64,000 nt of DNA, from positions 124,001 through 188,000 of the forward strand of contig NZ_JABURY010000006.1 of the NCBI RefSeq assembly GCF_014489845.1, in the 5' to 3' direction. The notes beneath the pieces are model-generated. The model was not told the DNA's origin, did no database searches, and saw only the letters and a list, made by a program, of their open reading frames with translations. This DNA is from Frischella japonica. Lineage in GTDB: Bacteria; Pseudomonadota; Gammaproteobacteria; Enterobacterales; Orbaceae. Below, piece after piece: positions 3,951 through 11,691 of the stretch; position 1 is the first letter of the stretch; each line of letters starts with the position of its first letter. Both the position numbers and the translations under genes were made by a program.

Positions 3951-5171
3951 TTATTGATTTGTTTTTTTCGCTAATACATCTTTGTCATTAAAGAAAATCC
4001 AGAAACCTACTGCTACTACTGCGGCAACGACTGCTGGATAGATCCAAAATTCCTGCCATTGAACGGCGGCTTGTGGCATTGTTTCTTCTGTAACAATACG
4101 GTTATTAATAAACCCACATACAGAGGCAGCCATAAAAACACCGAATCCATTTGAAACAATAAAGCGTAATCCTTGAGCTTGGGCTTTTATATCTGTGCTA
4201 GCTTTTCTATCGATATAGATGTCACCTGCGGTGAAAAAGAAATCCCAGCAAAGACCTTGTAGTAATAGTGCCCCAATAACATAATATAAATAATTTTCCG
4301 ATACAGCTGCTTCAGAGAGCATTAGACAGCGGATAATCCAACTAATGGCGCCAAATAAAATGACTTTTTTAAACCCAAATTTGCTCAAAATAAATGCTAA
4401 GAAGACCATAAAAATAACTTCTGTAGCAGTCGCAATTTGCATCATTGATGCTGGATCAATTTGTAAAACTGGAAAATAGACAGGAAGATAAGCACTATAA
4501 GCGGTTTTAGATATCATTAATATAAATGTTGAAAACATAAAAACTGAGAAGTATTTATCTTTAAATAAAGATAATGCATCTAAGCATAGGATTTCTCGCA
4601 TTGAAATCGTTTTGTTTTTAGCCGCTGGGGGTGTATTAGGTAAAGTAAAACAATAAATGCCATAAATGATTGAGGCACCAGCAGCCAAAATAAAGGTGTT
4701 AGTTGTTTTTGTGATATTAAGGACTTTGTCACCCATTAAAAAGCCTACCGTCATAAAACCAATAGTTCCAAACACACGCACAATCGGGAACCATTTTACA
4801 CCATCAATATGCCTAAAACTTACACTGTTTGCCAGCGCGGTAGTCGGATAGAATAATAGACCGACTAAAAAAATCATAATTAAAAAACCAACTTCATTAT
4901 GTTCATGAATAAACATAGGAATTGAAAAAAGTATTCCGGCGTTTAATAAATGTAAGATACCCATTACTTTTTGCGAAGCAAAAAATCTATCAGCAATCAT
5001 TCCTACAAAAAGAGGAGAAATAATAGTAGCTACACCCAACATTGAATAGGTTGAACCCACTATTTCTTTTAAACTGTAAGCGGCAAGGACTGCCCCAATT
5101 ACCATATTCCATGCACCTTGCACAAAATATTGCAAAAACATCATGACTAATAAGCGGGGTAATTTAAACAT
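3951..5171 (-). CDS. MFS transporter, nucleoside:H+ symporter (NupG/XapB/YegT) family
   Basis: A 406-residue, very hydrophobic protein with about 12 predicted membrane spans and no signal peptide. Segments such as GVATIISPLFVGMIADR, IVRVFGTIGFM, ILCLDALSLFKDKYF and GLCWDFFFTAGDIYIDRK follow the layout of E. coli NupG, placing it in the nucleoside:H+ symporter branch of the major facilitator superfamily. Inner-membrane, proton-driven uptake of a nucleoside, or of a sugar-like compound, is the likely role; substrate cannot be read from sequence. It starts 16 bp after the metallo-hydrolase gene, with an AAGGAAA ribosome site, so the two are an operon. Confidence 0.85.
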   Translation of the reverse strand: MFKLPRLLVMMFLQYFVQGAWNMVIGAVLAAYSLKEIVGSTYSMLGVATIISPLFVGMIADRFFASQKVMGILHLLNAGILFSIPMFIHEHNEVGFLIMIFLVGLLFYPTTALANSVSFRHIDGVKWFPIVRVFGTIGFMTVGFLMGDKVLNITKTTNTFILAAGASIIYGIYCFTLPNTPPAAKNKTISMREILCLDALSLFKDKYFSVFMFSTFILMISKTAYSAYLPVYFPVLQIDPASMMQIATATEVIFMVFLAFILSKFGFKKVILFGAISWIIRCLMLSEAAVSENYLYYVIGALLLQGLCWDFFFTAGDIYIDRKASTDIKAQAQGLRFIVSNGFGVFMAASVCGFINNRIVTEETMPQAAVQWQEFWIYPAVVAAVVAVGFWIFFNDKDVLAKKTNQ

Positions 5172-5187
5172 TATTTATATTTCCTTT

Positions 5188-6015
5188 TTAGACCATTTTT
5201 ATTAAGCCATCATAGGCAACTTCAATTTTATATGGTTTAAATATTTCAACTAATTCATCATGCATAAACCCACAGCTATGAGAATGATGAGATGTTATCA
5301 ATTGTGTTTGTTCATGGAAAATATTCTCACTAAGCATTCTTTTTTGTGCAGCTAACACAGTTTCAATACTCATATGATTATCTGTTCTATCATTTTGTCG
5401 GTAGCCATAGGTGCATTCAAATACAGCTAAATCTGGCTGTATACCACTATCTTTTAACCACTGCCATGTTAGCTCAGGAAAATATCCTGAATCGTGTCCA
5501 TATAATATGGTTTTTCCACATTTTTCAATTAAATAAATATAACAAAACTCCCACTTAGCATGGTTAGCTAATAAAGGTGTAATTCGGTATCCACTTGATG
5601 TTGTTACTGTTTGAAATGGTACGATTAAATTAAATACAAAACGTTCACTACTATATTCAGGTAATACATGTAAGCAACCATTAATCGCAACATCGTTTCC
5701 ATAAATATATAATGGATGGGTAATGTTAAACCCAAAATTAATCATACGACTATATAAATCACCAACATTAAAATGATCGGGGTGTGTATGCGTAAAGATT
5801 AAATCTTTTATTTTTGTTACATCAATGTTTTCGCGCATTACTTGATAACTAAATTCAGGGGCAAAATCAATCTGCATAAGATCATCAATAATAACAGAAC
5901 TTCGTGTTCTTACATCCTTACCTTTTTGGACACGTGTTTTTTCACATATTTCACATTTACAAAAAGGATTAGGAATACCTTCTGATGCAGCGGTTCCAAG
6001 AAATTGGATCTTCAT
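5188..6015 (-). CDS. PhnP-like MBL-fold phosphodiesterase
   Basis: A 275-residue metallo-beta-lactamase-fold protein with the features of PhnP: an N-terminal structural-zinc motif CKCEIC (residues 19-24), the catalytic HTHPDH motif (76-81), a later NH, GHDSGY and a C-terminal SHHSHS. PhnP opens 5-phosphoribosyl 1,2-cyclic phosphate in phosphonate degradation and also acts on cyclic nucleotides, but no other phn genes are here. Being first in an operon with a nucleoside-symporter-family transporter, it more likely processes an imported cyclic or diester phosphate compound; this is inference. The 65-bp upstream region contains a LacI-type operator. Confidence 0.8.
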   Translation of the reverse strand: MKIQFLGTAASEGIPNPFCKCEICEKTRVQKGKDVRTRSSVIIDDLMQIDFAPEFSYQVMRENIDVTKIKDLIFTHTHPDHFNVGDLYSRMINFGFNITHPLYIYGNDVAINGCLHVLPEYSSERFVFNLIVPFQTVTTSSGYRITPLLANHAKWEFCYIYLIEKCGKTILYGHDSGYFPELTWQWLKDSGIQPDLAVFECTYGYRQNDRTDNHMSIETVLAAQKRMLSENIFHEQTQLITSHHSHSCGFMHDELVEIFKPYKIEVAYDGLIKMV

Positions 6016-6079
6016 TTTTATCTGAACACCTAAATTTATTCGATTAACTATTTGTTATTCTATACTATTTTTTTTTATA

Positions 6080-6093
6080 TTGGAACGTTTCAA
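6080..6093. promoter_or_regulatory. LacI/GalR-family operator palindrome
   Basis: TTGGAACGTTTCAA is a 14-bp palindrome centred on AACGTT with a single asymmetric pair. This is the typical form of LacI/GalR-family operators (central CG, flanking TTGAAA-like half sites). It lies 65 bp upstream of the metallo-hydrolase start and overlaps AT-rich promoter-like sequence (TATAAA on the minus strand immediately downstream). The neighbouring LacI-type regulator at 1534-3720 is the obvious candidate to bind it; no copy was found upstream of that regulator. Confidence 0.65.
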
Positions 6094-6263
6094 TTTAAAA
6101 AAAATTAATTTCCTAAATCATAAATTTCGACGATGTTTTTTTAAATTGTATTATTCAAAAAAATTATTGAAATAAAAATGGACATTGTTCTATTACCATG
6201 TGATTTGAATAAAATGGCGAAGTTTTTACTTTTTATAATTGGGAAGGATTTTGAGGTAGATGA

Positions 6264-10380: not shown

Positions 10381-10608
10381 TATTTAGCTCAATATGAGGA
10401 CAACAGTTCCGTATAAATTTTTACTAACTAATTGTTAAAAAATATTTTTTCATTAACTATTTTGTAATGACATGGCATTTTGAAATAGATGATAAAATTT
10501 ATTGTATTTAAGCTGCGGATATAAATTAAAATTAAGCGGATGAAAAATTTGCTAATTTTAAGTAATTCTACGGTCTAAGATTTATTAAAATAAAAGCGAT
10601 AAAACCCA

Positions 10609-10629
10609 TATCGCGCAAAATGCGCGATA
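10609..10629 (-). terminator. Hairpin downstream of infA
   Basis: A 9-bp GC-rich stem (TATCGCGCA) with a 3-nt loop, 36 bp beyond the infA stop. A T-rich but interrupted stretch follows on the minus strand, so terminator function is likely but not certain. Confidence 0.55.
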
Positions 10630-10664
10630 CAACAATAGCTACTGTAGTGAGATTATTATTAGGT

Positions 10665-10898
<234 letters not shown>

Positions 10899-11034
10899 TT
10901 AATTTGTACTCAAATTGCTAATGATTAACAAATAACTATCCATTTTAAGGGGTAGTTATTAAATATAATTTAGCCGGCGAAATGATGCCGAAAAAAGTTA
11001 CAGAAGTAAAGTGATTTCTGTTATTTTTCATTAA

Positions 11035-11691
11035 TTAAGCGCCATATAAATGTTGTGTTTGAATATATTGCCAAACTTTTGGTGGTAATAACGACTGATA
11101 ATCCTGACGATTTTCAATATGCTGTCTAATTTCCGTTGCGGAGATGGCTTTTAAGGGCGTATTAGCAAAGTATATTGATCCACAAGGGTTTTGTTGAAGA
11201 TCGGTGATATTCTTTGTGCTATGCTGTAATAGCCATTTTTGTAACTGAAGATTGTCAGTTGTATTGGTAAAACCGGGACGGGGACAGATTAATAAATGAC
11301 AATAATCTAACAATGATTGCCAATGATACCACTTAGGTAAATTACATAATGAGTCCTGACCAATAATAAATGCTAAGCTCTTATGTTCACCATATTCAGA
11401 CCGCCAGTTTTGTAAGGTATCAATAGTATATGAGGGTCTATTAGGTTTGGCGTGAGTGATTTCACGAACGTCAATTGAAAAAAGGGGGTAGTCTTCAATT
11501 GCTAATTTAATCATTGCGAGGCGTTGAGCAGTTGTTGCTTTGGGTTGTGCTTTATGTGGCGGAATGTAATTGGGTAATAGACTGATGTGAGTTAAGTTAA
11601 TTTCTTTAGCCAATGCCATGCTCGGTAGTAAATGACCATAATGAATCGGATCAAAGGTACCGCCAAAGAGTGCTGTCAAATGGCCGGACAT
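11035..11691 (-). CDS. nadD: Nicotinate-mononucleotide adenylyltransferase
   Basis: Converts nicotinate mononucleotide and ATP to deamido-NAD in NAD synthesis. The 218-residue protein has the nucleotidyltransferase signature GGTFDPIHYGHL near the N-terminus and ISATEIRQHI near the C-terminus (SxTxxR-type motif). It starts 1 bp after the holA stop codon, the usual holA-nadD coupling. Last gene of the leuS-lptE-holA-nadD group. Confidence 0.96.
   Translation of the reverse strand: MSGHLTALFGGTFDPIHYGHLLPSMALAKEINLTHISLLPNYIPPHKAQPKATTAQRLAMIKLAIEDYPLFSIDVREITHAKPNRPSYTIDTLQNWRSEYGEHKSLAFIIGQDSLCNLPKWYHWQSLLDYCHLLICPRPGFTNTTDNLQLQKWLLQHSTKNITDLQQNPCGSIYFANTPLKAISATEIRQHIENRQDYQSLLPPKVWQYIQTQHLYGA

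Follow-up and report, generated by a model that had tools for sequence, protein, structure and literature searches.

A predicted phosphorylated-hexose module of a PhnP-like hydrolase, a nucleoside-symporter-family transporter and a LacI-type regulator in Frischella japonica

A 64,000-nucleotide stretch of the Frischella japonica genome (contig NZ_JABURY010000006.1, positions 124,001 to 188,000; referred to as the window) encodes a PhnP-like metallo-beta-lactamase (MBL)-fold hydrolase (HYD), a major facilitator superfamily (MFS) transporter of the nucleoside:H+ symporter family (NHS), and a LacI-type regulator fused to a sugar-binding-protein (SBP) domain (Table 1). On the basis of comparative sequence analysis, we tentatively regard these three genes as a catabolic unit, complete in itself, that handles a small phosphorylated hexose from outside the cell, with a hexose 1,2-cyclic phosphate as the likeliest candidate; we put the chances of this reading slightly below even. 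The protein families involved are all known; what would be new is the combination of a PhnP-like hydrolase and an NHS transporter as a sugar-catabolic module. An initial annotation had already recognized the hydrolase, the transporter and an adjacent regulator. Both open reading frames (ORFs) of the pair were recovered at exactly the same positions, on the same strand and 16 bp apart, with profile matches in agreement, and the regulator was found beyond the interval covered by that annotation, on the opposite strand, convergent with the HYD-NHS operon and not co-transcribed with it.

Its view that the genes take up and process a compound on their own, apart from any phosphonate operon, was also supported. 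PhnJ (PF06007) was not found in the one host genome searched, while the E. coli control was detected, so there is no sign of carbon-phosphorus (C-P) lyase, and a role in a phosphonate pathway was rejected. The C-P lyase (phn) operon likewise has a PhnP-like enzyme as its last step, but the present host lacks PhnJ and no phosphonate importer lies beside HYD in the window. The host genome (2.66 Mb) is of Orbaceae type, with Gilliamella providing the closest rows in the HYD tree.

Table 1. Features of the module, with positions numbered within the window.
Feature	Position	Strand	Basis or predicted role
LacI-type regulator with SBP domain fusion, 728 aa	1534..3720	+	PF00356 residues 3-46, PF13416 (SBP_bac_8) residues 349-635; predicted ligand sensor/repressor of the operon
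NHS-family (Nuc_H_symport) MFS transporter, 406 aa	3951..5171	-	PF03825; predicted phosphorylated-sugar importer
Lys222 codon of NHS, pairwise-aligned with NupG Asn228	4506..4508	-	phmmer alignment
HYD, PhnP-like MBL-fold hydrolase, 275 aa	5188..6015	-	predicted cyclic phosphodiesterase yielding hexose 1-phosphate
HTHPDH metal-binding motif of HYD, H76-H81	5773..5790	-	invariant in 60/60 loci
Palindrome ATTGGAACGTTTCAAT, predicted LacI-SBP operator	6079..6094	.	63 bp upstream of the HYD start codon

Conservation and identity of the hydrolase-transporter pair

The pairing on which the initial annotation built its module is a repeated one, and the condition named there for refuting it, a lack of repeated pairing, fails. 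Of 60 loci, 59 have NHS beside HYD on the same strand; they represent 22 named genera (counted from record titles), distributed over Enterobacterales, Pasteurellaceae, Succinivibrionaceae and Paenibacillus and including Gilliamella, Proteus, Klebsiella and Haemophilus; the one locus without NHS (L082) is on a 5.9-kb contig. These 60 loci comprise the window and 59 usable loci of a genome scan, from which L095 (a 39-residue match at 36%) had been dropped; that scan searched with two peptide patterns of HYD, and more distant HYD relatives fall outside the sample. The loci are not independent, since 11 Proteus and 9 Gilliamella rows are among the 58 of the HYD tree, which was built by a quick method with L074 and L082 left out, and negative intergenic gaps arise because the ORF caller takes the earliest start codon.

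Among 24 sampled genomes of the same family (the host included), HYD occurs in 13, each time with NHS next to it, and in a sample of the class it was detected at E<=1e-40 in one of 369 genomes, the host's own. Across 11 aligned same-family relatives, identity reaches 73-84% for HYD and 74-84% for NHS. Because both proteins are conserved in relatives and the pair recurs across phyla, the association is not attributable to chance, and since the surrounding genes differ between lineages, the module genes move as a unit. In the HYD tree Paenibacillus stands beside Budviciaceae with moderate support (89), and L094 forms a long branch; this suggests that the module may have been transferred between phyla. 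Among E. coli genomes the pair is present in 46 of 5,426, in 44 of them on plasmids, and one such plasmid stretch carries the regulator, HYD, NHS and MgtC flanked on both sides by transposase genes or their remnants. Chickens or other poultry were the source in 16 of 48 E. coli plasmid records.

Concerning the enzyme itself, HYD scored 70.8 bits against the PhnP model TIGR03307, under the curated cut-off of 272.25, and is for this reason called PhnP-like rather than PhnP. By sequence its nearest structure is nonetheless E. coli PhnP (3g1p, E=1.6e-12), with which its metal-ligand and Cys3-His residues align. C19, C21, C24, H76, H78, D80, H81, H152 and D175 were retained in all 60 loci, and H214, H243 and H246 in 59, the last two being absent only from one truncated row; we take these residues to be the MBL metal ligands, the catalytic His and the Cys3-His structural zinc set. 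The predicted structure (mean predicted local distance difference test score 81.0, with residues 8-14 and 153-155 below 50) gave matches tied within 1 Z unit to 6b9v of the PhnP family (Z 24.1), 3g1p (23.8), PqqB (23.8) and RNase Z (23.3), and on this model HYD is predicted to be a member of the PhnP/PqqB/RNase Z group of MBL folds. HYD further matches phrog_392, which groups metal-dependent hydrolases among phage proteins; this match is uninformative about the substrate. HYD would thus share with PhnP the fold, the HxHxDH motif and the predicted conversion of a 1,2-cyclic phosphate to a 1-phosphate; unlike PhnP, it travels with a transporter, a sugar-type regulator and, depending on the lineage, Pgm, GalT or MgtC.

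The transporter matches PF03825 (Nuc_H_symport) with 246.9 bits (gathering cut-off 25.9) and has YegT as its nearest solved structure (1.1e-56), followed by NupG (1.1e-38), while its score against the NupG-type permease model TIGR00889 (237 bits) stays under the cut-off of 446.1. E251 and D310, equivalent to NupG E264 and D323 (the glutamate of transmembrane helix 8 and the aspartate of the GxxxD motif), were invariant in all 59 NHS proteins; passages of PMC11979927 assign proton-coupling roles to the two NupG residues. Equally invariant (59/59) are K222, Q305 and W309, which in pairwise alignment fall on NupG N228, Y318 and F322, residues linked to uridine in the same passages. In contrast, two other NHS proteins of the host genome (L150 and L151) keep N, Y and F at these positions by pairwise alignment. 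A pocket carrying the invariant K222 would be compatible with an anionic substrate. In 59 genomes of the order, eight proteins exceeded 200 bits for PF03825; four of them, with K222, adjoin HYD, and the other four had no HYD beside them in the stretches examined. NHS thus shares family membership and the proton-coupling residues with NupG and YegT, and differs in carrying K, Q and W at the N228, Y318 and F322 equivalents and in its place beside HYD.

Regulator and operator

The regulator matches the LacI helix-turn-helix (HTH) model PF00356 with 52.8 bits (cut-off 27); its middle part aligns with LacI-type cores, and its C-terminus constitutes a complete SBP fold of about 400 residues. In the predicted structure, the best fold matches of this SBP part (residues ~321-725) were 5iai (Z 41.2), MalE3 (40.0) and SmoF (38.5), and the nearest folds are those of glucoside, maltose and sulfoquinovose binders. 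The fusion has the appearance of a full extracellular sugar-binding-protein fold turned cytoplasmic regulator, and the corresponding protein on E. coli plasmid L169 carries the annotation 'extracellular solute-binding protein'.

A 16-bp palindrome with the consensus ATTGGAACGTTCCAAT and a central CG was found upstream of the module, at three mismatches or fewer, in every locus carrying the regulator (46 of 46). Loci lacking the regulator had such a site in 2 of 14 cases and control stretches in 1 of 855, the consensus having been derived from the very loci that were then scored. The two exceptions are Orbus hercynius L040 (same contig as G003), in which the regulator is not adjacent, and L082 with its short contig. 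Within the host genome the sole site with one mismatch is the module's own (6079-6094). When only the window was scanned for 14-mer palindromes, one hit was obtained against 0.85 expected, and the signal comes only from the cross-locus comparison. A wider regulon in the host genome was rejected: one further site with two mismatches was present, and a reversed-pattern control gave equally many hits.

Of 24 genomes, 10 have the regulator, and these are the same 10 that have the module HYD; the remaining 14 lack it. In this sample 15 genomes belong to one family (10 with both, 5 with neither) and kinship is uncorrected. The regulator can be distant from the module, at ~25 kb to >1 Mb in four sampled genomes of genus group g3. 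Some loci lacking it have other regulators nearby, such as a HexR/RpiR-type protein in Tatumella ptyseos and a plain LacI-like protein in another Tatumella. Taken from these comparisons, the palindrome belongs, by prediction, to the LacI-SBP protein as regulator of the HYD-NHS operon.

Operon partners and the proposed pathway

Pointers to the product of HYD come from the genes that accompany it in two families. In Succinivibrionaceae the usual order is Pgm-HYD-NHS-sodium/phosphate (Na/Pi) transporter. An alpha-Pgm gene lies directly upstream of HYD in seven of eight loci, with gaps of 9-19 bp, and each of these seven genomes has two alpha-Pgm proteins, one scoring 892-914 bits and the module copy 629-704 bits; the eighth genome has only the higher-scoring one. 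The Na/Pi transporter follows NHS on the same strand in seven of the eight loci, at a distance of 16-171 bp in six of them and of 3,210 bp, with intervening genes, in L088. A HYD search of 56 genomes returned nine with HYD, one of which was new; this ninth genome has Pgm-HYD-NHS and then a gene that on visual inspection resembles the Na/Pi transporter.

In Pasteurellaceae the corresponding partner is GalT, which follows MgtC in the operon of three of the five genomes checked (two Haemophilus, one Aggregatibacter), in each case as the second GalT of the genome. The gene after this operon GalT is the regulator on the other strand and not galK, and this second GalT comes without a kinase. In Testudinibacter GalT is part of a gal operon on the opposite strand, beginning beside HYD, and in Aggregatibacter kilianii the sole GalT is not at the module. 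Overall, MgtC occurs in 34 of the 59 paired loci and a Na/Pi-family protein in 7; phosphate handling would be our guess for the role of MgtC, and PMC6658541 concerns MgtC and phosphate. Among the recurrent partners annotated, the neighbours having been annotated in part, there was no nucleoside phosphorylase, nucleoside kinase or other nucleoside or ribose gene.

Since Pgm and GalT share hexose 1-phosphate as a substrate, this compound is what HYD most likely delivers, and we regard it as the probable product of the enzyme. In the host genome one full alpha-Pgm copy (851 bits) was found and GalT was not, which makes the glucose branch likely there. As to the precursor, passages of PMC3463581 describe PhnP as converting 5-phosphoribosyl 1,2-cyclic phosphate to ribosyl 1,5-bisphosphate; because PhnP opens 1,2-cyclic phosphates to 1-phosphates, a hexose 1,2-cyclic phosphate is proposed as the nutrient, for example alpha-glucose 1,2-cyclic phosphate, with the galactose form in Pasteurellaceae. 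By our own arithmetic, glucose 1,2-cyclic phosphate is close in mass to uridine (242 versus 244) and would therefore suit an NHS importer, and its anionic character would suit the invariant K222. Breakdown of UDP-sugars is a plausible source of such compounds: in passages of PMC6888640, UDP-glucuronic acid forms a 1,2-cyclic phosphate with Mn2+ while UDP-GlcNAc is stable, and a passage of PMC5607165 reports spontaneous breakdown of UDP-apiose to its 1,2-cyclic phosphate.

Briefly, the pathway may operate as follows. The LacI-SBP regulator would sit on the 16-bp palindrome upstream of HYD until released by an inducer bound at its sugar-binding domain or LacI core; comparative genomics shows the operator link, and the ligand and the sign of control are our prediction. 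NHS would import the intact anionic compound by proton symport, a substrate and direction presumed from the computed family membership and proton-coupling residues. HYD would then open the cyclic phosphodiester as PhnP does, leaving the phosphate on C1, a reaction that we infer from the computed active-site residues. The resulting hexose 1-phosphate could enter metabolism through phosphoglucomutase or GalT with neither kinase nor ATP. In lineages that have them, the Na/Pi-family transporter or MgtC may handle the imported phosphate; export of inorganic phosphate by the Na/Pi protein YjbB is described in a passage of PMC11389368. That all this amounts to a dedicated, horizontally spread hexose 1,2-cyclic phosphate pathway, with a refitted NHS importer bearing a pocket lysine, kinase-free entry and a LacI-SBP sensor, is a possibility to which we give somewhat less than an even chance.

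Competing readings, significance and related systems

Several observations weigh against a hexose 1,2-cyclic phosphate. The HYD score is far under the PhnP cut-off (70.8 against 272 bits), the predicted fold suits PqqB and RNase Z almost equally, and other 1-phosphodiesters would yield the same hexose 1-phosphate. Each of the two links, to Pgm and to GalT, is drawn from a single bacterial family, and most loci, including the window, carry neither gene; two of the five Pasteurellaceae genomes have a single GalT and none in the operon, and the module Pgm proteins (629-704 bits) lie under the TIGR01132 cut-off of 778, so their sugar may differ. On the transporter side, neutral nucleosides are what NHS proteins are known for, and the fourth uridine contact, F143, is retained, with F in 50 of the 59 NHS proteins. 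YegT, according to passages of PMC11979927, also lacks the four uridine contacts of NupG, and changes at these contacts alone accordingly do not exclude nucleosides. Three NHS proteins unlinked to HYD show L in the K222 column of the multiple alignment, and one of them reads N in pairwise alignment. Two further items lean weakly to nucleotides: a dinucleotide-binding protein is among the fold matches of the regulator (Z 35.7), and in locus L030 a gene of the nicotinamide mononucleotide (NMN)-transporter family adjoins the module, with CTP synthase further on. The NMN-transporter gene is not beside the module in three other loci of the same genus. In Cetobacterium, a HYD relative of ~30% identity is preceded by ABC importer genes of the phnCDE type rather than paired with NHS. 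Finally, none of the open-licence PMC papers that the searches listed was found to treat hexose 1,2-cyclic phosphates as nutrients.

The best-surviving alternative, which we nevertheless consider unlikely, is the uptake of a linear glycosyl-1-phosphodiester that HYD would cleave to hexose 1-phosphate and an alcohol. Examples would be glycerophospho- or other alkyl-phospho-hexoses from lipids, teichoic-type polymers or capsules. Linear diesters are also cleaved by MBL phosphodiesterases, the product would be the same hexose 1-phosphate that the Pgm and GalT partners suggest, and the SBP part of the regulator resembles SmoF, a binder of sulfoquinovosyl glycerol. However, the PhnP-like residues of HYD point to cyclic phosphodiesters, the NHS family carries nucleoside-sized solutes, and no gene for the released alcohol was recognized among the recurrent partners.

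A ribosyl substrate, with nucleosides or 2',3'-cyclic nucleotides imported and hydrolyzed by HYD, is in our view improbable. Cyclic nucleotides are also PhnP substrates. The name of the NHS family and the action of PhnP on ribose cyclic phosphates, as given in the passages of PMC3463581, speak for this reading, as do two listed structures of a related MBL protein holding GMP or AMP, the dinucleotide-binding protein among the regulator matches, and the NMN-transporter-family and CTP synthase genes of L030. It is countered by the Pgm and GalT partners, the lack of nucleoside or ribose genes among the annotated recurrent partners, the sugar binders as best regulator matches, and the replacement of three uridine-contact residues in NHS (N228, Y318 and F322 to K, Q and W) that the host's two other NHS proteins keep. 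Of the initial annotation's 'ribosyl, glycosyl-phosphate or similar' substrate, the glycosyl-phosphate part is close to the present reading, and the ribosyl or nucleoside part is not supported.

There is likewise little to recommend damage control, in which HYD would repair 1,2-cyclic phosphates that arise intracellularly from UDP-sugars, with NHS moving or exporting the product. UDP-glucuronic acid (with Mn2+) and UDP-apiose cyclize without an enzyme in the passages cited above, and hexose 1-phosphate would be recycled, but the patchy, often plasmid-borne spread and the sugar-binding regulator are more in keeping with a niche nutrient than with universal repair, and NHS retains its H+ symport residues. 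A defence function was rejected, HYD and NHS having no PADLOC match at E 0.001 and the regulator only one of 19.8 bits over residues 2-24 (HTH).

If a hexose 1,2-cyclic phosphate is indeed the substrate, the module would open up a new source of sugar, extend the NHS transporters to a new class of substrate and lead to hexose 1-phosphate without a kinase; it would explain the second Pgm or GalT copies of some bacteria and would mean that 1,2-cyclic sugar phosphates serve as a genuine pool of nutrients, in guts and in other places. Passages on these compounds in PMC6888640, PMC5607165 and PMC3463581 treat them as UDP-sugar breakdown products or C-P lyase intermediates. No description of the module or of hexose 1,2-cyclic phosphate uptake was found in open-licence PMC titles and abstract starts, where '1,2-cyclic' is unsearchable as a word. 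The proposal also gives a testable substrate to a pair annotated as 'MBL fold metallo-hydrolase' and 'MFS transporter' in the E. coli rows listed.

Among known systems, the yegTUV operon of E. coli offers a parallel. YegU and YegV belong to enzyme families other than that of HYD. According to PMC10819704, the operon has an NHS transporter with a dedicated regulator, YegW, as does the present module; YegW, unlike the LacI-SBP protein, is GntR-type. In Cetobacterium somerae, the HYD relative on plasmid p1 (L171, 2755-7846) ends the phnCDE-type run, which is preceded by a histidine-type phosphatase with no NCBIfam match at E 1e-5. This arrangement may be an alternative route by which a similar compound is imported.

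Some neighbors were seen at individual loci. The NMN-transporter-family gene of L030 (G003) occupies 10406-11134 on the strand opposite to the module. Three tandem genes of one family lie upstream of the module in the Succinivibrionaceae loci L087 (1214-5506) and L089 (91-4368), and a single copy is present in Aggregatibacter kilianii (L073, 8308-9681); where tested (the first copy of L087, and L073), the family is sodium:neurotransmitter-symporter-like. In Klebsiella michiganensis the module looks disrupted in L074 and L082, the HYD match stopping at residue 258 on both contigs, and in L074 HYD is separated from a shortened NHS of 331 aa by a 326-aa ORF on the opposite strand.

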